Shown here one piece after another: positions 4,780-16,613 of a stretch of 64,000 nt of DNA (positions are counted from its first letter, which is position 1; each line of letters opens with the position of its first letter). The position numbers and the translations under genes are program-made. The notes beneath the pieces were generated by a model, which worked only from the letters and a program-made list of their open reading frames with translations, was not told where the DNA came from and searched no databases. This stretch comes from Epibacterium sp. Ofav1-8 (GTDB lineage Bacteria > Pseudomonadota > Alphaproteobacteria > Rhodobacterales > Rhodobacteraceae), in assembly GCF_022348185.1 (NCBI RefSeq), contig NZ_JAKRFD010000003.1:248001-312000 (forward strand), written 5' to 3'.

Positions 4780-5261
4780 TTGTCGAGCGCGCCCCTGACG
4801 CTCGCGCTGCCTAGCGCTGGGGCGGGCAACAAATCCGGAACCATCATGCGATCTGGTCCGCCGCGGACCGGATCGCGCTTCAGCTTGTGAAACATGTCCC
4901 GCGCCAGCAGTTAGGCCACCCTGCGCCCAGCAGCCATCTCGCAGTCTAGGCGACATGGCCGTGCCGTACGCGGTCACAAACCCAAGGGAAACTCTTCCTC
5001 CGCCGCATGAGCGGTTCTTACAGGACCCTGTCGTTCTGCCGTTGGTTTCGGTGACATCGCGCGCACTGCCGTGCTGAGGGCGCGGTTTCTTCGCGCGCCG
5101 TGGTGTGTGCGATGTCGCCACCACTGAGAGGCTTATCACCACCCGTTGATTGGCGCAGAAACATGCGGAAGGGGCTGCGTGCACCACGACGCAAGACGAA
5201 CGGCACGAGGCCAAAACGCGAATGTTGAGCAGAGGGGTGAGAGCCGGAATTTGCTAGATAT
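4780..5261. other. Intergenic region up to the left end of the integrated element
   Basis: About 480 bases with no convincing gene. The long antisense frame that runs through here is the shadow of the upstream enzyme. No tRNA, repeat or clear terminator was recognised. The chromosomal side of the element's left att repeat begins at 5262. Confidence 0.5.
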
Positions 5262-5308
5262 TGGAGGCGAGTACCGGAATCGAACCGGTGTACACGGATT
5301 TGCAATCC
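5262..5308. repeat. attL, 47-bp direct repeat (displaced 3' part of tRNA-Cys)
   Basis: Identical over 47 bases to 15566-15612. On the minus strand it corresponds to the tRNA-Cys segment from the anticodon stem-loop through the T arm, acceptor 3' strand and CCA. The 5' half of the tRNA is missing, so this copy is not a functional tRNA gene. It is the footprint left by site-specific integration. Confidence 0.95.
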
Positions 5309-5429
5309 TTCGGATACCTCTGAAAACGCAAGACAAAGCTGTAAACACCCCCCCTTTAAGGGTGTCCAAAAATCAAACGGTTACGCGCCGCCTGTAAACC
5401 GAAAAGGCGGATCCAGCCTCGGCCGCTTC

Positions 5430-5801
5430 ATGAAACCTGCGCACAAGCGCATGTCACGGATGATCGGCTATTGCCTCACCCTTGGCACTGCCGATGCCTG
5501 GTCCGGTTTTAGCTTGGTTGCAGCGAGGAGGCTTTCTGAGACCGAGCGCGCGGCGTTGGCGTTCTCGGCCCTCAATTCCCTTGAATTGGATCACGCTGAA
5601 ATGACGGCGGCGGCGTCTATCGGTTCGGCCGGTACGCCTTTGCCCCCGTTTCTCGGAGGCATGGAGGATGCTCGGTTCTGGGCATCATACGCCAGCCGCT
5701 CAGAACTCAAGGCATATGCCCTCGCGTGTTTCAACGCCATGCCCGCCAGCGATCAGGCGGCGTTCTTCCAGTACATCAGCGCAAAGGAGGTGGCAGCATG
5801 A
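5430..5801 (+). CDS. Hypothetical protein, first gene of the element's head operon
   Basis: A 123-residue, alanine-rich, mostly helical protein with no recognised family. Its stop overlaps the start of the head-tail connector gene (ATGA-type junction at 5798-5801), so it is translationally coupled to a structural gene. The start at 5430 has no good ribosome site, and later ATGs at 5451 and 5460 are possible. The position suggests a head- or packaging-related role, but nothing in the sequence fixes a function. A small terminase analogue or a helper-interaction protein cannot be excluded. Confidence 0.6.
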   Translation: MKPAHKRMSRMIGYCLTLGTADAWSGFSLVAARRLSETERAALAFSALNSLELDHAEMTAAASIGSAGTPLPPFLGGMEDARFWASYASRSELKAYALACFNAMPASDQAAFFQYISAKEVAA

Positions 5802-6352
5802 AGATGCTTGTGCGCCAAACCCCGGTTGGCAGTGAACTGCCTTTCGTACTCGACCTGTTGAAAGGCCACATCCGGGCCGATCCCAGCGATACCAGCGAGG
5901 ATGTCGAGATCACGAACCTCGGACTGGCGGCGGCGGCGGAAATTGAGCAGGTAAGCCAAATCGCGCTGCTGGAAAAGACAGTCCGCGTGACGGTGTTTGA
6001 AGCATCCATGGGCGAGCTTTGGCGGCTTCCCATTGGACCGGCTAAAGATACCGCTACACCGACCGTGACGATCAACGGCCAGCCCTTCTCAGACTATACT
6101 TTCTTCGGAGGCAACCGCCCTCACCTGAAGTGGGGCAACAGCTTCGCAAACCTGAGCTTGAGTTGGGTTCAGATCGAGTACCAGGCAGGCTTTGGCGACA
6201 CGGCATCCAGCATCCCGGCTGATTTGTCCTATGCGCTGATGGATCAGGCCGCGCTCCTATATGATGCGCGTTCTCCACTCAGCACCAAATCCCTCACCCA
6301 CTCCCCGCACATGGCGCGCATTGGGGCCAAGTATCGAGGAGTGAGCCTGTGA
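5798..6352 (+). CDS. Phage head-tail connector protein (gp6-like)
   Basis: A 184-residue protein resembling the gp6-like head-tail connector family, which forms a ring under the portal and receives the tail. Family signs are the N-terminal helical segment with LLKGHIRADPSDTSEDVEI and the later IEYQAGFGD-type phrase followed by a helix rich in Ala and Leu. ATG 5798 is chosen because AAGGAGG lies just upstream at 5784-5790; a longer frame upstream of it has no support. It overlaps the preceding stop by 4 bases and the following GTG start by 4, as in a coupled late operon. In an element without tail genes this ring would be the surface presented to a helper's tails. Confidence 0.8.
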   Translation: MKMLVRQTPVGSELPFVLDLLKGHIRADPSDTSEDVEITNLGLAAAAEIEQVSQIALLEKTVRVTVFEASMGELWRLPIGPAKDTATPTVTINGQPFSDYTFFGGNRPHLKWGNSFANLSLSWVQIEYQAGFGDTASSIPADLSYALMDQAALLYDARSPLSTKSLTHSPHMARIGAKYRGVSL

Positions 6353-6579
6353 CCGAAGAAGAACTGGATCTCATCATGACATTCCGGTGGCCGCGTGTAG
6401 TGCGTCAGGTCATGGGATTAGCCAACGATGAGCGGTTGATGGGCTTTGTCTGCTCAATCGCCAGGAGCGGCAAGTGTCGCAACTGGCACCCCTCCAAGAA
6501 GCAAGAGGCATGGATGCGCAACATCCTGGCTGACTTCGACGCCGCGCATGAGCCGGAAATTCAGCTGATCGAGAGGTGA
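6349..6579 (+). CDS. Small hypothetical protein of the head operon
   Basis: A 76-residue protein starting with GTG 6349, overlapping the connector stop by 4 bases. It is tryptophan-containing and mixed-charge (MTEEELDLIMTFRWPRVVRQ at the start, a KKQEAWMRNILADFD stretch later). No family was recognised. It is the last gene before the 395-base gap ahead of the large terminase. Tight coupling supports that it is real. A DNA-binding or adaptor role is possible but not shown. Confidence 0.6.
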   Translation: MTEEELDLIMTFRWPRVVRQVMGLANDERLMGFVCSIARSGKCRNWHPSKKQEAWMRNILADFDAAHEPEIQLIER

Positions 6580-6589
6580 TAAGAACGAA

Positions 6590-6611
6590 GCCCGCCGGGC
6601 GAACGGCGGGC
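6590..6611 (+). terminator. GC-rich hairpin after the first three head-operon genes
   Basis: Perfect 7-bp stem CCCGCCG/CGGCGGG with a 6-base loop, 11 bases after the stop at 6579. There is no T-tract, so it may attenuate or shape the transcript rather than terminate it. Confidence 0.45.
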
Positions 6612-6974
6612 CTATGCGGCAGGTGGCTTTCACGGGTTAGCCGGGCCTGACGCATCACAGTGCTACCGGGAAACGGGCCAAAGCACAAGGGCAGCTATTC
6701 CGCGTCTTGCGGTCATTCCATGCCCTAAGGCCCCACTGCCACCCTCTAAGGCGGTGAACATGGGAGTGCGGACCGAGCCGAGGGAAAGGCAGGTCTGGCC
6801 ATATGCTGGGGCCTTCCGAAGTGGCGGGCAACATGGCGGCGGTCAGGGCGGGAGGCGGGGTTTTATCCCCTGCCACGGTAACCCGCTTTCTGACCGTCAC
6901 CAAGATAACCAACGTTGGAAGGCTTAGAAGAAGAGAACAACGGTTAGGTAGAGAGATACGCGCGAGGACAGACG
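6612..6974. other. Gap inside the head operon; possible packaging-site region
   Basis: About 360 bases between genes that are otherwise overlapping. An open frame of 59 codons (6803-6982) ends 8 bases inside the large terminase gene, but its arginine-rich product matches no family I know and its start is unsupported. The minus-strand frame across the region is not convincing. In HK97-type phages the small terminase gene normally precedes the large one; none is recognisable here. The gap could hold the cos/pac site, an unrecognised small terminase or an RNA element. GAGG at 6964-6967 serves the large terminase ATG. Confidence 0.4.
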
Positions 6975-8690
6975 ATGACTGAGGTAAAGAAAAAAAAGGA
7001 CAGGCAGTGGCGCAAAGCAGACGGCTCAAAGCTGCCGACGCCAGCCCCCGCACCGACGCTTGCGGAACAACGGGAACAAGACCTCTTCGGAAATGGTCCC
7101 AATGCCGAGACTTTGAAGAATGCAGGTAACCGAGGGTATGAGTTTTCTCTTTTCGCGCAGGACGAAAAGTTCGCCGCAGCGCCGCCAGCCGAAAGAGCTA
7201 TGCAATTCATGCATAGCCTGGCCATTCCCGAAGGTCCGAACGCGGGCACCCCAGTCATCCTCGCGCCGTTTCAACGCCAGTTCATCGAAGGCGCACTAGC
7301 TGCCGACACTGTCAACGCCATTCTCAGCATTGGGCGCGGCAACGGCAAATCTGCAATCACGGCGGGCTTGGCGCTTGGTGGCCTGATCGGCATCTGGGAC
7401 CGTCAACCACGTCGGGAAATCATCGCTGCCGCACGGACGCGCGACCAGGGCCGGATTATCTGGGACTTTGTGGCAGGCTTCGCGGCCTCTCTACCCCTCG
7501 AAATCCAGAAACAGTTGATCTACCGCCGTGCCCCCCGCTTGGAAATCGAATTCACTGGCGACGGTGGCGGGCATGTTCTGCGGGTGATTGCGGCTGACGG
7601 TAAATCCGCCCTGGGCGGTGCTCCTACCATGGCAATCCTGGACGAACGCGGACACTGGGCGCTTGATCGCGGTGATGAGCTGGAACACGCTTTGCTGTCT
7701 GGCCTGGGGAAGCGCGGCGGGCGCGCGGCCTTGATCAGTACCAGCGCCAGCGACGACACTCACTCCTACTCACGCCACATCGACGATCCATTGCCCGGCA
7801 CCTATGTGCAAGAGCATCGGCCCGCGCCCGGTCTCCCTGCGGACGATCCAGAAAGTTTGCTGATCGCCAACCCCGGCGCGCCTCATGGTATCGGCGCTTC
7901 GCTGGAATGGCTCGAAGCCCAGGCCAAGCGGGCGATTGCGCGAGGTGGATCCAGCCTCACGAGCTTCCGGCTCTACAACCGCAATGAGCGCGTGTCCGGT
8001 GAGGCGCGTGACATGCTGATTACCTTGGACGAATGGTTGGCCTGCGAAACCGATCCTTTGCCGCCCCGGCAGGGCAGCGTCGTGATCGGCATCGACCTGG
8101 GCGGATCGGCCAGCATGACGGCGGCTGCGTTCTATTGGCCCGAGACCGGGCGGCTAGAATGCCGGGGAGCCTTCCCTTCGCAGCCGTCCCTGCTGGATCG
8201 CGGGCAGGCCGATGGCGTGGCCGGGCGATATGTAGAGATGCAGGACCGGGGCGAATTGTCGGTTCTGGGCGACAAGACGGTGCCCGTTGCGCCATGGCTG
8301 GCCGAGGTGGTGCGCCATGTCGAAGGCCAGCCGATCAGCGCGATCACGATGGATCGCTTCAAACGGGCCGAACTGAGCGAAGCGATCACGCGGGCGGGCA
8401 TCCGTGCTCCGCTGGTCTGGCGCGGGCAGGGCTTCTTCGACGGTGGCGAGGATGCAGAACGTTTCCGCCGCGCGGCCTTTGACGGCCAGGTGAAGGCCAG
8501 CCCGTCACTGCTGTTGCGCTCTGCCTTCGCGGATGCGGTCTGCCTGCGCGACCCTTCGAACAACATCAAGATTGCCAAGGCCCGTTCGAACGGGCGGATC
8601 GACGCGGCGGCGGCAACGGTTCTGGCCGTCGCCCAGGGCGCGCGGATCGCGGCACAACCCAAAGCAAAAGCGAGGATGGCATGGTTCTGA
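6975..8690 (+). CDS. Phage terminase large subunit
   Basis: A 571-residue packaging motor that drives DNA into the prohead by ATP hydrolysis and cuts the concatemer. The ATPase half shows a Walker-A variant GRGNGKS (about 120-126) and Walker-B MAILDE (about 219-224). The nuclease half begins at VVIGIDLGGSASMTAAAF (near 370), the RNase-H-like metal site, and ends in a basic tail. Length fits the Terminase_1 (HK97/P27-type) family. The gene overlaps the next start by 10 bases. No recognisable small subunit, which normally selects the DNA, accompanies it. The N-terminal 40 residues are lysine-, proline- and alanine-rich and probably disordered. Confidence 0.92.
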   Translation: MTEVKKKKDRQWRKADGSKLPTPAPAPTLAEQREQDLFGNGPNAETLKNAGNRGYEFSLFAQDEKFAAAPPAERAMQFMHSLAIPEGPNAGTPVILAPFQRQFIEGALAADTVNAILSIGRGNGKSAITAGLALGGLIGIWDRQPRREIIAAARTRDQGRIIWDFVAGFAASLPLEIQKQLIYRRAPRLEIEFTGDGGGHVLRVIAADGKSALGGAPTMAILDERGHWALDRGDELEHALLSGLGKRGGRAALISTSASDDTHSYSRHIDDPLPGTYVQEHRPAPGLPADDPESLLIANPGAPHGIGASLEWLEAQAKRAIARGGSSLTSFRLYNRNERVSGEARDMLITLDEWLACETDPLPPRQGSVVIGIDLGGSASMTAAAFYWPETGRLECRGAFPSQPSLLDRGQADGVAGRYVEMQDRGELSVLGDKTVPVAPWLAEVVRHVEGQPISAITMDRFKRAELSEAITRAGIRAPLVWRGQGFFDGGEDAERFRRAAFDGQVKASPSLLLRSAFADAVCLRDPSNNIKIAKARSNGRIDAAAATVLAVAQGARIAAQPKAKARMAWF

Positions 8691-9022
8691 GCGCCGGTAG
8701 TCTCAACCGCCGCATTCAAGTCCAGCGGGTAACCAAAACCCCGGACGGCTATGGTGGTTTCAACAGCGAATGGAACGATCACGGCCCGGCGATCTTCGCC
8801 AGGCGACGCGACGTGTCCGACGTTGAACGCCTGAGTGCCGGTGCTTGGAATAACAAGCTTGTCACTCGCTTTATCATCCGCGCCACTGCATTCGGCAAAG
8901 GCATCCGCCGCACAGATCGCTTGGTGCACGAGGGTTTTACCTACGAAATCAGCGGCATCAAAGAGGTTCCGGACACCCGCGCATTTCTCGAGATCACAGC
9001 CGAAACGGAAGAAACACTGTGA
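8681..9022 (+). CDS. Phage head closure / head-tail adaptor protein
   Basis: A 113-residue protein of the SPP1 gp16 / head-tail adaptor type, which seals the connector after DNA filling and forms the tail docking face. The characteristic pattern is present: an N-terminal LNRRIQVQRVTKTPDGYGG, then a strand-rich core with FIIRATAFGKGIRRTDRLVH and YEISGIKEVPDTRAFLEIT. Normal size for the family. The start lies inside the terminase stop and its own stop overlaps the HNH start, so it is co-translated with both. Confidence 0.85.
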   Translation: MVLSAGSLNRRIQVQRVTKTPDGYGGFNSEWNDHGPAIFARRRDVSDVERLSAGAWNNKLVTRFIIRATAFGKGIRRTDRLVHEGFTYEISGIKEVPDTRAFLEITAETEETL

Positions 9023-9360
9023 GCGCGCGCAAGGAACATCACCGGCATTCCCGGAAGGTCACCCGCACCAAGCGCTGGAAGGCACTGCGCGCGGAGATCC
9101 TCGAACGTGACCGCTACCGCTGCAAGTCTTGCGGCTGCGGTGGGCGGCTCGAAGTGGATCACATCAAGCCGGTCAGGACGCACCCCGAACTGTCTTATGC
9201 CCCCCACAACCTACAGGCGCTCTGCCCGAGCTGCCACACACGGAAAACTCGGATCGAGTGCGGGCATCCCCCGCCCCGAAAAGACCGCCAAGACTGGCGG
9301 CAAGCGGTCGAGGCGATGGAACGCCCCGGCAAAACCCAAACCAACAACCGCGAGGAATGA
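9019..9360 (+). CDS. HNH endonuclease of the packaging module
   Basis: A 113-residue HNH nuclease. The zinc ribbon CKSCGCGGRLEVDHIKPV and the second pair CPSCHTRKT frame the catalytic His in LEVDHIKP. In HK97-like phages and in capsid-forming satellites an HNH protein next to the terminase is needed for cos cleavage during packaging, and that is the likely role here. GTG start at 9019 overlaps the head-closure stop by 4 bases. The capsid gene follows within 3 bases. Basic N and C termini fit DNA binding. Confidence 0.9.
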   Translation: MSARKEHHRHSRKVTRTKRWKALRAEILERDRYRCKSCGCGGRLEVDHIKPVRTHPELSYAPHNLQALCPSCHTRKTRIECGHPPPRKDRQDWRQAVEAMERPGKTQTNNREE

Positions 9361-9362
9361 GC

Positions 9363-10634
9363 ATGTTGGATTCTGTGAAGATCGCCCGGCGGCAAAGCGA
9401 AATCCGCCAGCAACTGGCCGAACTGGCAGGCAAGGAAACCCCGACCGAGGACGAAGTGCGGTCGATGGAAACGCTGGACCTGGAATACCGCCAAAACGAA
9501 ACCAGGTATCGCGCCGCCCTGATCGCGGAAGACACCGAGCGACGTGATGCGGGCACCGAGCTGGAAACCCGCTCCGCCCAGGAATGGGCCGAACTGATGG
9601 GTGGTTTCGAGCTGCGCCAGGTCGCACTTGCGCTCGATGAAGGGCGTCAGCTCGACGGGCAAACGGCCGAGATCGTGACGGAGCTGCGCAGCGCGGGTGG
9701 CTTCCGTGGTATTCCCGTGCCCTGGCAGGCGCTGGAAGTTCGGGCCGGTGAGACCGTCGCCACCGGCACCCCGAACCCGATCCAGACACGCCCCATCATC
9801 GACCGGCTTTTCCCAGACAGCGTGGCGGCGCGCATGGGAGCGCAGATGATCAGCATCGACGCGGGCGCGGTAGAATGGCCCGTGACCACCTCGGCCGTCA
9901 CGGCGGGATGGGCCGATGGCGAGACGGCGAACGTGGCCGGGCCGACGACCTACGCAACCACCGACCGCGCCATGTCGCCGGACCACAATCTCGGCATTCA
10001 GATGCGCATCACGCGCAAGACGCTCAAGCAGTCCGGCGCGGCGCTGGAGCAGGCGGCGCGCCGGGACATGAGCGGGGCAATGGGCGCGGCGATGGATCAG
10101 GCGGCTTTCCTCGGCACGGGGGCCAATGGTCAGCCGCTCGGCGTCATCACCGGCGCGGCGACCTATGGCATCACATCTACGGGCGTGGATGCACTGGCGA
10201 GCTGGGGAGCGTTTCGCTCGGCCGTCACCCGCTTCATGACCGCAAATGCCGCCGGTTCACCGGACGCGGTGCGGGCGCTGATCCGGCCCGAGCTGTGGGA
10301 CTTTCTGGACGGCGCGCTGATCGACGGCACGGCGGTGTCCGAGTGGGACCGCTTGGTAAAGAACCTGCCCTCAGCCAACATCGCCATGACGAACAATGCG
10401 CTTGCTGCACCGTCAGGATCCCCCGCGGCCACATCTTCGCTGCTTACCACCGCGGCGGGCGGGGTTGCCCCGATCTTCATCGGTGCATGGGGCGCGGTGG
10501 ACATGATCCGCGACCCTTACAGCGATGCACAGTCCGGCGGGCTGCGGATCACTGCACTCGCGACCATGGACGTGACCGTAGCTCGGCCGGCCCAGCTTGA
10601 ACTGCTGACCGGCCTCCAACTGGCGGCGGCGTAA
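9363..10634 (+). CDS. Major capsid protein, HK97 fold
   Basis: A 423-residue HK97-family capsid protein. The first ~105 residues are helical and charged (IARRQSEIRQQLAELAG and on), matching the delta/scaffold domain that the prohead protease removes. The shell domain follows, with GGFRGIPVP, a long ITRKTLKQSGAALEQAARRD spine-helix region and QAAFLGTGANGQPLGV, a phrase typical of this family. ATG 9363 is preferred over 9357 because GAGGA sits 7 bases upstream. The open frame extends further 5' but overlaps the HNH gene. It forms the icosahedral head together with the protease and portal downstream. Confidence 0.93.
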   Translation: MLDSVKIARRQSEIRQQLAELAGKETPTEDEVRSMETLDLEYRQNETRYRAALIAEDTERRDAGTELETRSAQEWAELMGGFELRQVALALDEGRQLDGQTAEIVTELRSAGGFRGIPVPWQALEVRAGETVATGTPNPIQTRPIIDRLFPDSVAARMGAQMISIDAGAVEWPVTTSAVTAGWADGETANVAGPTTYATTDRAMSPDHNLGIQMRITRKTLKQSGAALEQAARRDMSGAMGAAMDQAAFLGTGANGQPLGVITGAATYGITSTGVDALASWGAFRSAVTRFMTANAAGSPDAVRALIRPELWDFLDGALIDGTAVSEWDRLVKNLPSANIAMTNNALAAPSGSPAATSSLLTTAAGGVAPIFIGAWGAVDMIRDPYSDAQSGGLRITALATMDVTVARPAQLELLTGLQLAAA

Positions 10635-11212
10635 TGCTCTGGGGCGCTCATACCGGCAGCATTGAGCTGCGCAACGAGGGCGGGGAAACCCGCCTTCGGG
10701 CAACCTTTCCCTATGGCCTGGAAACCGTGCTAGCCGAGCGCGTGGGCATGGGCCGTGAGCGTCGTGAGATGATCGCAGCGCGTGCCTTCGCGGATCGGAT
10801 CGAGCGCGGCGAGGACGTGCACTTTCTGTCCGGCCATGACTTCAACAAGCCGTTGGCCTCACGTTCGGCCGGCACCCTGACCCTGACGGAAACGGATAAC
10901 GCGCTGACGGTAGAAGCGACGATCAGCGCAGACATGGGTCAGGTCAGCTATGTCCGGGACTTCCTCTCGGCCCACGCGGCCGGTCTGGTGCGAGGTCTGT
11001 CCCCAGGTTTCCGCGTCCGGCCGGGCGGCGAGGCAGTCGAGGAACGCGGCAACGCGATCCTGCGGACCATCAAGGCGGCTGACTTGATCGAGATCAGCGC
11101 CGTCACGAAACCCGCCTATCCCCAAGCCCAGATCGAGGCCCGAAACTGGCAACCCATCGGCGAGGTGGTCAAACGCCTGACGCACCGCCCCGCCGCAATC
11201 CGATGGAGGTGA
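10634..11212 (+). CDS. HK97-family prohead protease
   Basis: A 192-residue S78-type serine protease that trims the capsid scaffold domain during head maturation. The catalytic His lies in FLSGHDFNKPLASRSAGTL and the Ser in RGLSPGFRV, spaced as usual. Its ATG overlaps the capsid stop by one base (TAATG), so the two are coupled. Size is normal. It sits after the capsid gene rather than before it, which is the reverse of the HK97 order. Confidence 0.9.
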   Translation: MLWGAHTGSIELRNEGGETRLRATFPYGLETVLAERVGMGRERREMIAARAFADRIERGEDVHFLSGHDFNKPLASRSAGTLTLTETDNALTVEATISADMGQVSYVRDFLSAHAAGLVRGLSPGFRVRPGGEAVEERGNAILRTIKAADLIEISAVTKPAYPQAQIEARNWQPIGEVVKRLTHRPAAIRWR

Positions 11213-11214
11213 CC

Positions 11215-12279
11215 ATGTTTGGATGGCTCATGAACAAGCTGCGCCCGATCGAGGCCAGGTCCAGCGGATCTGGCTATACCGCCCAGGTCATGGCGGCGCG
11301 GGACAGCTTTATCAGCGGCCGGCGCGGCGTGGCCGAGCTGACGGCGACGGTGCAGAGCTGCGTCAGCCTTTGGGAAGGCGGGTTCGCAATGGCGGACGTG
11401 TCCGGCACCGAGTTGCTGACCCGCCAGACGATGGCGATGATTGCCCGTGCGGCCGCGCTGAACGGCGAGGCTGTCTATCTGATTACCGAACTGGGGCTTG
11501 TGCCGGCGACAGATTGGGACGTCACAACCCGTGATGGCAAGCCGCGCGCTTATCGCCTGTCCATCCCCGAGGCAGGCGGTGGGCGCACGGTAACCGCTCT
11601 TGCTGCCGAGGTGCTGCACCTTCGGATCGGCTCGGACAACCTGACGCCCTGGATCGGCACCGCCCCGTTGCGCCGGTCCAGCCTCACCGGGGCCATGCTC
11701 CACGCCGTGGAATCGGCCCTGGGCGAAACCTTCGAGAATGCCCCGCTCGGCTCTCAGATCGTGCCACTGCCGGACACCGGGGCCGAGGATATGGCATCAA
11801 TGCGTGATGAATTTCGTGGGCGGCGCGGCTCCACGTTGGTGATCGAGGGCATAGCGCAGGCGACGGCGGCGGGCATGAACCCCCAAATCGGGCAGAAGCC
11901 GGATCAGCTCTCGCCAGACCTGTCCAGGAGCATGACGGCTGAGACGCTCGCCGCAGCCCGAGAGGGTATCCTCATGGCCTATGGCGTCCTGCCGTCGCTG
12001 GTGAACCGTGCCGCCACAGGCCCAGTCGTTAGGGAAGCGCAACGCCAGCTCGCAATTTGGACGCTGCAACCTATCGCCGCCCTGCTGGCCGATGAGGCAT
12101 CCGCCAAACTCGGCGGGCTGGTGGAGATCGACACTATCCGGCCGCTGCAAGCCTTTGATGCAGGCGGGCGCGCCCGCGCCCTGTCCGCGATCATCAAGAC
12201 GATGGCCGAGGCGAAAGAGGCGGGCATTCCGCCCGGTGACGTGTCCGGGGCCATGCGCATGGTGGATTGGAAGGAATAG
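11215..12279 (+). CDS. Phage portal protein
   Basis: A 354-residue HK97-type portal, which forms the dodecameric DNA entry ring at one capsid vertex. Recognisable features are the N-terminal SGYTAQVMAARDSFISGRRG, the VLHLRIGSDNLTPWIGTAPL segment and the C-terminal helices with YGVLPSLVNRAATGPVVREA, where the portal binds the packaged DNA. ATG 11215 is chosen because GGAGG lies 7 bases upstream; an ATG at 11203 is in frame but lacks such a site. The gene is shorter than many portals (about 400-430), lacking part of a C-terminal extension. It is the last gene of the plus-strand head operon; about 135 bases later the strand switches. Confidence 0.88.
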   Translation: MFGWLMNKLRPIEARSSGSGYTAQVMAARDSFISGRRGVAELTATVQSCVSLWEGGFAMADVSGTELLTRQTMAMIARAAALNGEAVYLITELGLVPATDWDVTTRDGKPRAYRLSIPEAGGGRTVTALAAEVLHLRIGSDNLTPWIGTAPLRRSSLTGAMLHAVESALGETFENAPLGSQIVPLPDTGAEDMASMRDEFRGRRGSTLVIEGIAQATAAGMNPQIGQKPDQLSPDLSRSMTAETLAAAREGILMAYGVLPSLVNRAATGPVVREAQRQLAIWTLQPIAALLADEASAKLGGLVEIDTIRPLQAFDAGGRARALSAIIKTMAEAKEAGIPPGDVSGAMRMVDWKE

Positions 12280-12414
12280 GCAGGGCGCGCCTCGGGTAGC
12301 TTTATCCAGCTTGTTCAACCCGAAAGCGCCTCGGATCAGTCGGTGAGTGCCGTATCAACCCCGACAGCGCGCGGCCCAATGCTCCAATTCCAGCGGGCGC
12401 GGCGCGCATTTAGG

Positions 12415-12687
12415 TTAACTCATGTCTTCGGGTTTTTGGTATTCATAACCACCAAACTCTACAACAGCAGTCCTAGGGTCTTCCGAGGCGTCCCAATCGA
12501 GCAGGTTCGCAGAGTGGAACATTATACTTGCGACGTTGAAGATCAGAGGGGTTGCTGAGTGGTAAGCAACCAACTGCAATAGCGCTCCATCCACTTTCTC
12601 AACTTTCCAGTATGTGGAAGTAAAAAAAACACCCTGTTCGTCACGACCAGATGTAATAAACTCGTAACTCTTTCCAACTTCAAACAT
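12415..12687 (-). CDS. Small hypothetical protein downstream of the Arc-type repressor
   Basis: A 90-residue protein with alternating strand-like segments (VGKSYEFITSGRDEQGVFF, STYWKVEKVDGALLQLVAYH). No family recognised. GAGG lies 6 bases before the ATG. It is 43 bases after the repressor stop on the same strand and probably in the same transcript. The DNA is AT-richer than the head genes, as is typical for accessory or immunity genes of phages and satellites. It could be an immunity, anti-phage or helper-interference protein, but that is only a positional guess. Confidence 0.55.
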   Translation of the reverse strand: MFEVGKSYEFITSGRDEQGVFFTSTYWKVEKVDGALLQLVAYHSATPLIFNVASIMFHSANLLDWDASEDPRTAVVEFGGYEYQKPEDMS

Positions 12688-12730
12688 TTTCGGCCTCGAT
12701 AGTTATTTCTTTCAATTGGGGCTCAGTTTC

Positions 12731-13018
12731 TTATTCACGGCCGTTTTTCTCAGCTTTCAAGCCTCTTTCAAGAACTTCAATCCCCCAGTCATACAACTGG
12801 CGCAACTCCGCTTTGTGCGAGTCGTCTGATGCAAGCAATCTATCGTACTCTTCAAGGAGTGACTTAAGTTTGTCCTCAGCGGAGGCCGGAAACTGTTCGT
12901 CTAGCGCTGTTACAATTGTAGCGTTCAAGGAAGAAGCGCCGCCTGCCGCATTGATGCGAGCATGCAAATCGCGCGGAAGGCGCAGAGTTATTCGAATCCA
13001 GTCATCTTGCTTTGCCAT
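12731..13018 (-). CDS. Arc-type ribbon-helix-helix repressor
   Basis: A 95-residue DNA-binding protein. The N-terminal 50 residues (WIRITLRLPRDLHARINAAG, then SLNATIVTALDEQF) fit the Arc/MetJ ribbon-helix-helix fold, in which a beta strand enters the major groove. The C-terminal half is a charged helix, probably for oligomerisation. ATG 13018 (MAKQDDW) fits the Arc fold better than the in-frame codon nine residues upstream. It faces a divergent gene across an array of TAGTGT-type operators, so it is the likely master repressor of the element. Helper-phage proteins would be expected to relieve it if this is a satellite. Confidence 0.85.
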   Translation of the reverse strand: MAKQDDWIRITLRLPRDLHARINAAGGASSLNATIVTALDEQFPASAEDKLKSLLEEYDRLLASDDSHKAELRQLYDWGIEVLERGLKAEKNGRE

Positions 13019-13050
13019 AACAGCAGAATAGCAATGCCGCACCAAATTGC

Positions 13051-13100
13051 CACCAAAATAGTGTTGACACTAATATAGTGTCTGCACCAAAATAGTGTCA
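13051..13100. promoter_or_regulatory. Three-site operator with overlapping promoter between the Arc-type repressor and the divergent gene
   Basis: Two direct copies of CACCAAAATAGTGT (13051-13064 and 13085-13098) flank the inverted repeat GACACTAATATAGTGTC (13066-13082, 7-bp arms). All three share TAGTGT. TTGACA at 13064-13069 overlaps the central site, with an AAAAT-containing weak -10 about 18 bases on, pointing to the plus-strand gene. This arrangement suits cooperative binding by a small RHH repressor. Confidence 0.75.
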
Positions 13101-13130
13101 CACCGCAGTTGACCTATGAGAGGTTCTTTG

Positions 13131-13553
13131 ATGTTGAAAAATCGCGTTCGCGCGCATGGCGGAGCTGTGTCTCGCCGTGCCCTCCTGGCATCACTACCAG
13201 CCAGCCCGCTAGCTCTTTCGCTAGTTGAGCCAGTCGCAGCCCGTTCCACAGACCCCCTAGTCGCGATGCATGATGAGTGGATGTCTCTTCGTCGAGAGTG
13301 GGACAAACTAGCCAAGCTCCCTGGCAACGAGAGCTTGGTCACGCCTCCAATGGTCGAACTAGAGGATAGGTGGATCGCACTAGAAGAGCGTATGGCAGAT
13401 TGCACCCCGACCTCACTGGAAGGCATCGCCGCGCTTGCGTCCTTATCCTGGTACTATCTAGCAATGGAAGGAGGCGAAGAAGATGCTGAGAACCGTGCGG
13501 TTCGTTCCATCTGGCAGGCATGCACAGGAAAGGCAGGCAACCCGCTCATTTAG
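13131..13553 (+). CDS. Hypothetical protein, first gene of the element's early operon
   Basis: A 140-residue protein transcribed divergently from the repressor. ATG 13131 is favoured by AGAGG seven bases upstream; an in-frame ATG at 13116 lacks a site. The N terminus contains SRRALLASLPASPLALSL, which looks like a twin-arginine-type signal or a cryptic hydrophobic segment. The rest is acidic and helical with many Trp and Glu residues. No family recognised, though I believe similar proteins occur in alphaproteobacterial prophages. Being first under the operator, it could be a replication, excision or helper-interference gene; the sequence does not say which. Confidence 0.6.
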   Translation: MLKNRVRAHGGAVSRRALLASLPASPLALSLVEPVAARSTDPLVAMHDEWMSLRREWDKLAKLPGNESLVTPPMVELEDRWIALEERMADCTPTSLEGIAALASLSWYYLAMEGGEEDAENRAVRSIWQACTGKAGNPLI

Positions 13554-13616
13554 CACTTAGTGCGTAATCATCATTTAGGGTTGACGGCTACCCTTAATAA
13601 CGCTTAGTCATTTAGG
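13546..13616 (+). repeat. Three TCATTTAG direct repeats before the HTH-like gene
   Basis: TCATTTAG occurs at 13546-13553, 13571-13578 and 13608-13615, all on the plus strand. The last two extend to TCATTTAGG. TTGACG at 13581-13586 lies between them and may be a -35 element. The layout suggests an operator or iteron-like set controlling the gene that starts at 13618. Confidence 0.45.
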
Positions 13617-13617
13617 C

Positions 13618-14244
13618 ATGCGTAAGGGACCGTTCATATCAACTGTAGCCACCTTCACCCGGATCGAGGAGAAGACTGTGCAGATGTACGCTCGTGAGCT
13701 CATAAACAATGGCCTGTTTTCAACCGGTGCCAGAGGCGTCAACGCTCCGCATATGACAAAGAGTGACCTGTCCAATACGCTCAGCGCGCTATTGGTCACA
13801 AACCGCCCCGCCCACGCTCCTGAACTGGTCCGGTACTTTGGTGCGATGCAATTGAGCATTCCAGAGGCTTGGCGCTCCAGTGGGACGCTTCCCAGTGACC
13901 CAGATCACACATTTTCTGAACTCTTGGAGTGTTTTTGCGATCCGCTTAACAAAATACCTAGCGGGATCCTAATCAACATCATCGGAACGTCTTCAGTAGA
14001 AGTCTGCAACCAAGATGTGCTCGATGATAACGGCAAGCCGCTTTCCTTCACGTATTACTCCCGTGAACTGATGGCTCGCCTAATGGATGGAGAATATTCT
14101 CCACTTCTAGATCAGCGCGGCATTACGCGTTCCAGTTCAATTGATGCGATTACGATTGAGCACATCAAAGCGAAAGTGTTCGAAGGTGTTGATCCGGCTC
14201 AAGGCCCTCACCTTTCGAACTCTGCGACGAGCGAGGAGGCCTGA
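13618..14244 (+). CDS. HTH-like prophage-type protein, putative regulator
   Basis: A 208-residue protein. Residues 5-40 (TVATFTRIEEKTVQMYAREL, then NNGLF) read as a helix-turn-helix, followed by a TGARGVNAPHMTKSDLSNTL phrase that I associate with uncharacterised proteins of alphaproteobacterial prophages. The C-terminal half has no recognised domain. It sits directly after the TCATTTAG repeats and just upstream of the integrase pair, where excision and induction control genes usually lie. It could be a functional counterpart of AlpA or of a satellite transcription activator, by position only. Base composition is lower in GC than the head genes. Confidence 0.65.
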   Translation: MRKGPFISTVATFTRIEEKTVQMYARELINNGLFSTGARGVNAPHMTKSDLSNTLSALLVTNRPAHAPELVRYFGAMQLSIPEAWRSSGTLPSDPDHTFSELLECFCDPLNKIPSGILINIIGTSSVEVCNQDVLDDNGKPLSFTYYSRELMARLMDGEYSPLLDQRGITRSSSIDAITIEHIKAKVFEGVDPAQGPHLSNSATSEEA

Positions 14245-14245
14245 A

Positions 14246-14452
14246 ATGGAGCGCCGCCCTGCCGCGATCCGCAAGTCTGATCTCACGCCCGCTTTCGAAG
14301 CCGCGAAAGCTGCGGGCTATGATCAGGTGTCCATCGTCGTAGAAACCACTGATGGCAAACGTTTCCTGATCACGGCGGGAACCGCCGGCGATGCTACCAA
14401 GCCGGACATGACCCCGCTCGAAAAGTGGAGGGCAGGCCGTGCCACAAGCTGA
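14246..14452 (+). CDS. Small hypothetical protein coupled to the integrase
   Basis: A 68-residue protein starting at ATG 14246, one base after the previous stop, behind GAGGAGG. It contains DLTPAFEAAKAAGYDQVSIV and DGKRFLITAG, an alpha-beta pattern often seen next to integrases in alphaproteobacterial phages. A longer in-frame start inside the upstream gene is unlikely. It overlaps the integrase GTG by 14 bases. A recombination directionality role is possible, but no winged-helix excisionase motif is evident. Confidence 0.65.
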   Translation: MERRPAAIRKSDLTPAFEAAKAAGYDQVSIVVETTDGKRFLITAGTAGDATKPDMTPLEKWRAGRATS

Positions 14453-15491
14453 TCTGCCCAAAGGTGTGCACCGCGTCCGGCGGAAGCTGGCGAACGGCAA
14501 GAGCCGCTTTCACTTCTATGCATGGCGTGGCGGTCCCAAATTCTGGGAAGGTGACCACCGCAAGCCGAACGACCCTGCGTTCTATCAGGCATTCGCGGAA
14601 GCCGCTGCGCGCCCGAAACCGGCTGACTACACGACGCCCGAAATGGTGGATGACTTTCTGTCCAGCACCGCCATGCCCAAGGGCGAACGGTCCCGCGCCG
14701 ACATTCGGAAATGGGGCCTGCGATTCGCGGACCATTTCAAGGATGCGCCTGCCGTCATCTTCGAGGAACGCGGCGCACGGGGCGAGGTGAACGCATGGCG
14801 GGCGCTCTGGAAGCACTCACCGAAGCAGCACGATATGGCGGGCACCCACGCGGTTCGCATTCTCAATTGGGCGGTGGATGAGGGCAAGCTGTCCGAGCAT
14901 CACTGCCACAAGCTCCACCGGCTCTATGAGGCGGACCGCTCAGAAATCGTTTGGACCCAAGCCGACCGGGAAGCCTTTAACGCGGTCGCGCCGGAATGGG
15001 CCCGCCGCATTCTTTGCGTCGCCTGCGAAACCGGCTTGCGCCCGGCTGACCAGATCAAGCTGACCCCGGCCCACGTCGAGCAGACGCCGCGCGGCCGTCG
15101 CCTTCGCGTCAGGACGAACAAACGCAAGCGGCTGGCCCATATCCCGATCACGCCCGCGCTGGCCGAGGTGATCGACACGACTCCGCCAGGCCGGTTGCTG
15201 ATCCTCACCAATGCCAACGGCAATGCCCTGACCCCGCACCGCGCGTCCGAGGGTGTCCGCCAGTGGCGCGACAAAGCCAAGCTGTCCGATGAGCTGCGCC
15301 TATATGATGCACGCGGGACGGCTGCAACGCGCCTGCTAAATGCCGGTCTATCCCTTGCTGAGATTGCCAATCACATGGGCTGGTCAGTTCGCTATGCAGG
15401 GAACGTGATCGAGCATTACGCCCGTGTATCGCCTGACGAAACCGATGCTGTTCTGGCCAAGCTGGCGCAATCGGAAGGGGGCGCAGCATGA
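14439..15491 (+). CDS. int: Tyrosine recombinase integrase
   Basis: A 350-residue phage-type integrase that recombines attP with the tRNA-Cys attB. The catalytic domain has Arg201 in CETGLRPADQIKL, a lysine in the basic hairpin LRVRTNKRKRLAHI, Arg292 in LYDARGTAATRLL, Trp315 in HMGWS and the nucleophile Tyr327 in VIEHYARV. The usual HxLRH box is YDARG here, so both box histidines are replaced while the arginine is kept. The start is GTG 14439, overlapping the preceding gene. The stop is 74 bases from the att repeat, the normal position for an integrase that uses a tRNA gene as target. Confidence 0.93.
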   Translation: MPQADLPKGVHRVRRKLANGKSRFHFYAWRGGPKFWEGDHRKPNDPAFYQAFAEAAARPKPADYTTPEMVDDFLSSTAMPKGERSRADIRKWGLRFADHFKDAPAVIFEERGARGEVNAWRALWKHSPKQHDMAGTHAVRILNWAVDEGKLSEHHCHKLHRLYEADRSEIVWTQADREAFNAVAPEWARRILCVACETGLRPADQIKLTPAHVEQTPRGRRLRVRTNKRKRLAHIPITPALAEVIDTTPPGRLLILTNANGNALTPHRASEGVRQWRDKAKLSDELRLYDARGTAATRLLNAGLSLAEIANHMGWSVRYAGNVIEHYARVSPDETDAVLAKLAQSEGGAA

Positions 15492-15565
15492 ACAAAATTG
15501 TAAACGGGTATGTAAACGGCGCAGGCCGCGTAAGCGATGGCGAAGCGCAAGTGTCTGAAAATAAA

Positions 15566-15612
15566 TGGAGGCGAGTACCGGAATCGAACCGGTGTACACG
15601 GATTTGCAATCC
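15566..15612. repeat. attR, 47-bp direct repeat within tRNA-Cys
   Basis: Identical to 5262-5308. It covers the anticodon loop through the CCA end of the intact tRNA-Cys gene, so integration restores the tRNA. Confidence 0.95.
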
Positions 15613-15639
15613 GCTGCGTCACCACTCCGCCAACTCGCC
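15566..15639 (-). tRNA. tRNA-Cys (anticodon GCA)
   Basis: A 74-nt cloverleaf with encoded CCA. Acceptor GGCGAGT pairs with ACTCGCC, the anticodon loop is TTGCAAA and the T arm contains GGTTCGATTCC. It is the integration target of the 10.3-kb element and stays complete after insertion. Confidence 0.97.
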
Positions 15640-15896
15640 TTATCAATCGCTTAACAGTGGCGGGTGGTGTCCTGCCACTTAGCGTGCCACACTGTCTATT
15701 TGTGTTCTGATGGGTTCGCAAGGGGCAAAACGACGATCTCTCACGAAATTCTTGGGACTTCTCGAAGCCTGGTTTGAGGCGCTGCGGGACGGGGAAACGG
15801 AGACCATTGAATGCTCTGCCCGTTCCGGCCGTTCCGTCAATTGGGCCGCTGGCAAGCGATACGCTAGGCGGGACAATCTGGGGTGCTGAAAGAGGG

Positions 15897-16613
15897 CTAA
15901 CCCTGCGCCGTCGCGCTTTGGTGATGCGTCCGGAGGATGGCCTTGGCGATTAGCCCGGGGACGCCGGGCAGTGCGCCGAGAACGGGCAGGGTGGCGCCCT
16001 GAAAGCCGGCCTGGGCCAACGCTTCGGGGATGTCTTCGCGCACATGTGCGCCGGATTGGGCAAAGAAGGGCAGGCATAGGGCGCGGGGACCAAGGGATCG
16101 GGCCGCGTCCGCGATGAACGGTGTCTCCTCGACAAAGCCGGTGCGCAGGTTCAGCCCTGGCAGGGCGGCGCGCAGTGTCGCAGCAAAGGACTCGGCGGCC
16201 TCGGCTGCCTTCGGACCGCGTGCAGAGCCATGTGCAGCCAGCAGGATCTCGGTATCGTCGAGCGCCCAGCCACGCGCTGCAACCGCATCCCGGATGGCGG
16301 TGACCGTGAGCGCCGGCAGCGCCGGATCAAGGCCAAACGGCGCGGCGATCCGGTATCGCCACCCGGTCAGGCGCCGCGGCAAGACCTTGCCGGTGAACCA
16401 TCCCCGCGCCATGAAAAAGGGATAGATCACCGCATCCTCACACATGGCGGCCTCCAGAAACCCCTTGGACGAAAGGGTTGCAGACCGGACATCCCAATCG
16501 GGCAGCTGGTCGTTCACGGCTGCTGCCACCGCGGCGAGATGGATCTCGGGGGGAGGGGGTGCAGACGGCTGGCCATGAGAGGTCAGGATGGCAACGCGGG
16601 GGAGATGCGGCAT
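15897..16613 (-). CDS. CbiX/SirB-type sirohydrochlorin chelatase-like protein
   Basis: A 238-residue class-II chelatase with two half-domains. Each has a histidine motif at the metal site: LTSHGQP near the N terminus and LLAAHGSARGPKAAEAAESF in the second half. Members insert Co or Fe into sirohydrochlorin for cobalamin or siroheme. No other tetrapyrrole genes are near, so the substrate is uncertain. ATG 16613 (MPHLPRVAIL) is chosen because the 71 residues upstream in the open frame look non-coding. It lies just outside the integrated element, 257 bases from the tRNA-Cys. Confidence 0.78.
   Translation of the reverse strand: MPHLPRVAILTSHGQPSAPPPPEIHLAAVAAAVNDQLPDWDVRSATLSSKGFLEAAMCEDAVIYPFFMARGWFTGKVLPRRLTGWRYRIAAPFGLDPALPALTVTAIRDAVAARGWALDDTEILLAAHGSARGPKAAEAAESFAATLRAALPGLNLRTGFVEETPFIADAARSLGPRALCLPFFAQSGAHVREDIPEALAQAGFQGATLPVLGALPGVPGLIAKAILRTHHQSATAQG

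Follow-up and report, generated by a model that had tools for sequence, protein, structure and literature searches.

How does an integrated element of about 10 kb spread when it encodes the head of a phage and no recognised tail? The question is raised by a 10,304-bp unit bounded by exact 47-bp direct repeats at tRNA-Cys in Epibacterium sp. Ofav1-8 (assembly GCF_022348185.1), within the window, by which we mean the whole 64,000-nucleotide stretch analysed (contig NZ_JAKRFD010000003.1, positions 248,001 to 312,000). Judged from its genes and those of its relatives, this element is probably a capsid-building, tail-stealing integrative satellite with its own head and a helper's tail; a structured RNA before its large terminase gene (terL) may stand in the initiator's role. 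Once the element is induced, probably by a phage, its integrase would excise it and it would multiply; its terminase would package about 10 kb into the element's own small heads, its adaptor and head closure proteins would let the tail of a helper siphophage attach, and lysis and entry would be supplied by the helper. More tentatively, the RNA before terL may do the job of a replication initiator or primase-helicase. If this is correct, tail theft by head-building satellites would be common in the Rhodobacteraceae, as most relatives are labelled, and a single chassis would carry two or more head types; in addition, a covariation-supported RNA outside Rfam would sit where related elements carry replication proteins, making RNA-based satellite replication directly testable.

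From left to right the element holds g1, an adaptor, g3, a non-coding gap, and the genes for the large terminase (TerL), head closure protein (Hc1), HNH endonuclease, capsid, protease and portal; to the right of the portal lie two minus-strand genes (a 90-aa protein and a ribbon-helix-helix regulator), three small genes and a tyrosine integrase. An earlier description made from the letters of this DNA (the sequence-only reading) had proposed a 10.3-kb unit with a perfect 47-bp repeat, an integrase and HK97 head genes at tRNA-Cys, all of which are confirmed by the repeat, the tRNA and the family matches, and an AT-richer half, which is seen as a drop in GC content to 0.50-0.55 over about 12.0-14.5 kb of the window. 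Its coupled frames hold for g1-adaptor-g3 and for TerL through portal, which are linked by overlaps of 1-10 nt (with the adaptor start assigned at 5798 in this analysis), but not at the 395-nt non-coding gap (6580-6974) between the end of g3 at 6579 and the start of terL at 6975. Its Arc-type repressor corresponds to a ribbon-helix-helix protein, but the matches are weak. The absence of tail, lysis and replication genes that it had noted is borne out: no family of these kinds was recognised among the 16 element proteins in PHROGs and Pfam (for the HNH protein, among the 25 of its 37 PHROG matches listed). Several conserved small genes match no known function, and it is conceivable that a minimal tail is concealed among g1, g3, g140 and g208, or that particles are released in vesicles, either of which would make the particle self-sufficient. 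We regard this as improbable, as no lysis gene was recognised, g1 and g3 are both undetected in 26 of the 101 HK97-type elements with sufficient sequence before terL, and the element encodes an adaptor and a head closure protein, which form the attachment point for siphophage tails.

Relatives of the element are widespread. Of 295 genomes in a sample of the host's family, 31 hold a capsid relative at E<=1e-20 (the host's own genome included, and one genome only at 32% identity). Searches with the capsid gave 52 loci in genome contigs. In IMG/VR they matched 108 of 113 candidates, and the 80 best matches were retained; the IMG/VR loci are often duplicates of genome loci. Hidden Markov models (HMMs) of the window proteins recover a common order of g1-adaptor-g3-gap-TerL-closure-HNH-capsid-protease-portal-regulators-integrase in many relatives, whose genes were called with a hexamer-based script, and in a second layout the protease and portal genes are separated by an additional gene of about 500 bp. 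Because this arrangement is repeated at dozens of loci, a chance origin is excluded. The sequence-only reading had proposed looking for this arrangement at tRNA-Cys elsewhere, and it is indeed found there and at many other sites: a tRNA scan of the 52 genome loci placed integration, where a site was found, at Cys, Glu, Phe, Thr, Arg, Lys, Leu, Ser, Met and Asn tRNAs and at tmRNA. Some capsid relatives are labelled outside the Rhodobacteraceae (L032, Rhizobiales bacterium; L025, a metagenome-assembled genome (MAG) of Ponticaulis; L050, Methyloceanibacter; L034, an Oceanospirillaceae MAG), and the MAGs may be mis-binned.

The elements are of near-constant size, with a mean length of 10,154 bp (standard deviation 343, range 9,317-10,880) in 33 elements with usable repeats, several of which are only 16-20 nt long, and with some element ends in relatives estimated. 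These are 33 of 39 measured rows; L052 and L056 (repeat not accepted as an attachment (att) site), L080 (at the end of a contig), L089 and L093 (duplicates of L017 and L018) and L116 (13.7 kb) were left out. Over six pairs, the ratio of nonsynonymous to synonymous substitution rates (dN/dS) is 0.07-0.15 for the capsid, 0.06-0.18 for TerL and 0.03-0.09 for the portal, and these three proteins are under purifying selection; for the protease it is 0.10-0.63, with the top value from the pair of lowest dS. Near-constant size, many sites and purifying selection argue against decay and for a presumed packaging limit, and the element is not a lone broken prophage. Recorded phages are distant from it. 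Among 50,697 phage records only nine match the capsid, none above about 27% identity, and 111 match TerL, all below 60% (the 25 listed at 26-28%), while four of 72,556 plasmid records match the capsid, one at 83%.

The ends of the element form a chassis that carries more than one kind of head. DNA patterns from the gap retrieve elements that share g1, g3, the gap sequence and the integrase but have different head genes. Lambda-type head genes on the same ends are present in L188, L193, L194 (whose genes recur in L237), L200, L215 and L217. In L188, PHROGs identify a small terminase (TerS), TerL, portal, protease-capsid, adaptor and decoration protein, and L193, L194, L200, L215 and L217 were called lambda-type by eye from similar sequences; reading the lambda-head sequences by eye, we recognised no tail genes. 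L237, the sole lambda-head element measured, spans 10,154 bp between 46-nt repeats at tRNA-Cys. In L099 (261-12695) the end of a lambda-type element, with its integrase, directly precedes g1 of an HK97-type element, and the 17.6-kb L234 (1-17633) joins the chassis ends and the RNA to another head and TerS/TerL. The occurrence of differing heads on the same ends indicates that the chassis exchanges morphogenesis modules, in one case including part of a tail.

Several observations weigh against a tail-stealing satellite. L234 carries major tail and tape-measure proteins (the two proteins on which PHROGs was run); no distal tail or lysis gene was recognised among its called ORFs (open reading frames), and it is possibly an intermediate between phage and tail-less satellite. 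The second-layout element L043 has a tape-measure-like fragment (13596-14327, E=8e-14) after its portal, L041 encodes a Neck1-like protein, and L116 lies beyond the size range of the family. In one pair the dN/dS values are as high as 0.62-0.63 for Hc1 and the protease, and all of the ratios are rough because several dS values exceed 1 or are saturated. Among the 16 element proteins no TerS was recognised, which a divergent TerS could escape.

Taken with the HK97-type late genes, the fragment in L043 and the tail-tube genes kept in L234 might indicate the remnant of an ordinary tailed prophage that has lost its tail and lysis genes. This is very improbable given the near-constant 10.2-kb size at many sites, the purifying selection, the lack of a close tailed relative in the phage records, and the repetition of the apparently tail-less state with lambda-type heads. 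The full-length tailed prophages of the same kind that the sequence-only reading had named as evidence against itself were not encountered, but L234 combines these ends with another head and with tail-tube genes. Its proposal of an own head with a tail from elsewhere is supported by the size of the 33 elements, the many att sites, the purifying selection and the absence of a close tailed capsid relative.

The host genome contains other phage-related loci that bear on the question of a helper. Contig C12 has a resident prophage that encodes major tail, tape-measure and tail fibre proteins and an endolysin, C19 has a tail module, and C22 has a cluster resembling a gene transfer agent (GTA), named from its layout; close to the ends of contigs there are five more large-terminase matches, at C32, C33, C34, C31:441685 and, weakly, C6. 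Connector likeness was tried as a guide to the helper and gave a mixed signal. Among three other Hc1 proteins of the host genome, the element Hc1 HMM best matches that on the C19 prophage contig, beside tail genes (5e-17, versus 1.5e-5 and 1.4e-4), and the element adaptor HMM is nearest to the adaptor of the GTA-like locus (E=1.2e-17). Since the two connectors point to different loci, we name no helper. Agents of the RcGTA type found in Rhodobacterales are fixed, complete particle clusters with a tail, have no integrase and are not mobile. That the element is itself a GTA or a domesticated head cluster serving the host is, despite this adaptor match, extremely unlikely, as it has an integrase, att repeats, patchy presence and no recognised tail, and a separate GTA-like cluster lies on C22.

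The nearest functional parallel to the proposed satellite is found in the capsid-forming phage-inducible chromosomal islands (cfPICIs), which carry a small terminase beside the large one, together with AlpA and PICI-type primase or replication genes. The element shares with them its own capsid, portal, protease, connectors and large terminase, the lack of recognised tail and lysis genes, and an integrase with att repeats. It differs in that no adjacent TerS, AlpA or PICI-type primase or replication gene was recognised among its 16 proteins and an RNA stands in place of the replication gene, in its alphaproteobacterial relatives and size of about 10 kb, and in a capsid far from recorded phage capsids. 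cfPICIs such as EcCIEDL933 likewise combine their own head and terminase with no recognised tail, att integration and helper tails, and according to a review their capsids fall in three clades (PMC11389934). The sequence-only reading had taken the element for an alphaproteobacterial member of the cfPICI class or an independent equivalent; its head set without a tail would let it work like a cfPICI, but membership is unsupported, as TerS, AlpA and primase were sought and not found. We do not claim membership and set the element beside the cfPICIs by description only. Our literature search on such satellites in Rhodobacter, Rhodobacteraceae and Alphaproteobacteria returned nothing on point, and some members may figure in the main cfPICI study (Alqurainy 2023). 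PICIs and P4-like satellites use helper capsids. They resemble the element in being small and integrative with opposite-strand regulators, and some relatives of the element have AlpA-like and primase-helicase genes; they differ in that the element encodes its own head.

The gap before terL, which the sequence-only reading overlooked, contains a structured RNA that is absent from Rfam and has strong covariation. The RNA of about 340 nt (6581-6919) fills most of the gap. RNAalifold on 42 sequences of this type (T1) gives 75 pairs, 33 of which have changes on both sides; the alignment (A2) holds 42 of 44 non-redundant T1 sequences, with L009 (taken as a chimera) and L186 left out. Pairing holds in 97.4% of alignment cells, a figure favoured by deriving the structure from the same sequences, and covariation is 0.247 compared with 0.036-0.064 for slid partners. 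None of 500 shuffles reaches the observed values, in a test that is inflated by the kinship of the sequences. A separate covariation test against eight simulated null alignments found seven column pairs at E<=0.5, four within the structure and three outside it. Folded singly, the sequences do only moderately better than their shuffles, with z of -2.35 and -2.27 for the two strands, and the frequency of G-U pairs favours RNA over DNA. T1 was found by nhmmer in 74 of 234 sequences, several of them duplicates. A second RNA type (T2), about 46% identical, was found in 65 sequences with a rebuilt model that leaves out L019, whose gap is occupied by an O-like ORF. Of the 74 loci matched by the earlier T2 model, 33 were T1 loci as well; the presence of L019 in its training set had made four elements appear to have both RNA and an O-like gene. 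The T2 fold was computed with L019 and L017 included. Matches to a T2 17-mer in L213, L214, L218, L219 and L224, which lack the expected neighbours (L219 has HNH only), are probably due to chance. In Rfam only the tRNA scored above the gathering threshold in 5000-16000 (the four matches listed for 6400-7100 all have E>=4.3), and blastn of the RNA against the phage collection gave no match. The literature searched, including the available parts of PMC2864571 and PMC8632094, describes no such RNA, which is a weak negative. Near the 3' end of the RNA (A2 columns of about 312-323 and 418-428), short direct repeats some 90-100 nt apart change together in several alleles, in the manner of paired protein-binding sites.

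What the RNA may do is suggested by what replaces it. In the region before terL of the 101 HK97-type elements, 58 have the RNA, 14 an O-like initiator, 12 a primase-helicase and 17 none of these, and no element has two together; dereplicated by capsid (n=76), the counts are 40, 10, 10 and 16. The O-like gene of L017 and L019 lies between g3 and terL. A capsid tree of the 76 requires a minimum of 26 changes in the state of this slot (shuffling the labels 500 times gave a mean of 32.7 and a minimum of 27), which indicates frequent swaps. A homologue of g1 (47% of g1 covered) directly precedes a primase-polymerase gene in Paracoccus phage KLEP18-1. Together, the exclusivity of the slot, the swaps and this g1 homologue suggest that the RNA replaces the replication initiator or primase-helicase of sister elements, for example as an origin or primer RNA, a proposal that we hold less firmly than that of the satellite. 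ColE1-type origins are RNA-primed, and the likeness to them would be in this hypothetical role only, with a structured RNA where an initiator protein is expected; the element RNA has no Rfam match, and we know of no sequence relation between the two. In its fullest form the proposal would describe a large alphaproteobacterial satellite lineage that replicates from an RNA of about 340 nt as origin or primer, exchangeable with O-like initiators and primase-helicases, on a chassis of about 10 kb that swaps HK97- and lambda-type heads and borrows tails; we put this forward tentatively, as a possibility that is more doubtful than likely.

Four points weigh against a role in replication. Exclusivity could arise from replacement at one locus rather than from shared function. 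The slot holds none of the three in 17 of the 101 elements, among which L032 and L038 have a protein assigned to a PHROG that bears the name DNA topoisomerase. L186 combines the RNA with a weakly matched HTH_36 protein outside the slot (E=2.5e-4, below the cut-off). Finally, the position of the RNA also fits the leader of a late operon. The RNA stands at the start of the morphogenesis genes for every head type, even in L234 where TerS/TerL are distal, and could control the late operon by antitermination, attenuation or helper sensing; such a leader is a possible but somewhat unlikely explanation, as O-like or primase genes take the place of the RNA in the same region and never occur with it. 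Since the RNA adjoins terL in the window and has the co-changing repeats at its 3' end, the stretch might alternatively be a cos-like packaging site, a packaging RNA or a stand-in for the missing TerS. This is less likely again: the lambda-head L188 has both TerS and RNA, as others appear to, terL of L234 is more than 7 kb from the RNA, and the frequency of G-U pairs points to RNA, not DNA.

Table 1. Features of the integrated element, in window coordinates.
Feature	Position	Strand	Evidence or remark
att site, left copy	5262..5308		copy of tRNA-Cys 3' end; perfect 47-bp direct repeat
g1, 123 aa, all-helical	5430..5801	+	conserved at left end; HMM matches 75/164 sequences, many from cut contigs
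Head-tail adaptor (gp6-like)	5798..6352	+	phrog_442 E=1.4e-9
g3, 76 aa, conserved beside RNA	6349..6579	+	HMM matches 67/164 sequences
Structured RNA type T1	6581..6919	+	nhmmer matches, covariation; outside Rfam
Terminase large subunit (TerL)	6975..8690	+	phrog_9 E=1.5e-57, PF20441, PF03354
Head closure protein Hc1	8681..9022	+	PF05521 E=6.5e-17, phrog_25
HNH endonuclease	9019..9360	+	PF01844, phrog_144
HK97-fold major capsid protein	9357..10634	+	PF05065 E=2.1e-15, phrog_617
Prohead protease S78	10634..11212	+	PF04586 E=2.1e-22
Portal protein	11203..12279	+	PF04860 E=3.1e-13
90-aa protein	12415..12687	-	HMM matches 4/164 sequences
Ribbon-helix-helix (Arc-like) regulator	12731..13045	-	phrog_795 E=1.1e-6, phrog_582 E=0.03
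g140, 140-aa protein	13131..13553	+	HMM matches 27/164 sequences
g208, 208-aa protein	13618..14244	+	helical N-terminus, alpha/beta C-terminus (model pLDDT 87)
g68, 68-aa protein	14246..14452	+	some relatives have an HTH (helix-turn-helix) or AlpA-like protein at this position (by eye)
Tyrosine integrase	14439..15491	+	PF00589 E=8.9e-12, phrog_1
att site, right copy	15566..15612		3' part of tRNA-Cys 15566-15639 (minus strand)

Several proteins were considered as a possible TerS. The structure model of g1 (pLDDT 86, pTM 0.50) is all-helical, and neither it nor the model of g208 has a match in the PDB at E<=0.001; there is no support for either as TerS. A match of L020 to phrog_57, named small terminase, ranks under DNA-binding and excisionase families, and the HNH protein matches phrog_4581, which is labelled small terminase, through its HNH part. 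The sequence-only reading had also suggested that the AT-richer half might serve helper interference. The evidence for this is slight: PADLOC, run on 90 accessory proteins (chiefly representatives from 102 clusters formed by 228 ORFs of 35 elements, together with window proteins), gave five families, mad1 in four members and HTH_VI, Control_protein, capH and PDC-M06B in one each. The PHROG scan of the accessory proteins lists 25 of 66 families.

Two IMG/VR elements have ends that repeat each other. In L186 (3300013935_000005), which has an HK97-type head and the RNA, the ends overlap by 123 nt with one mismatch and terL spans them, indicating a circular or tandemly repeated unit of about 9.43 kb; the integrase HMM found no match in it, and it is perhaps a plasmid-like capsid-building satellite. 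A check for exact end repeats over 125 IMG/VR loci, some of them duplicates, found only L196 (3300009472_001028), inexact overlap having been measured in L186 alone. L196 has an exact 123-nt end repeat, a unit of about 9.34 kb and no capsid match, and in it g1-adaptor-g3-RNA-TerL is followed by an opposite-strand ORF of 1,224 aa that replaces the head genes.

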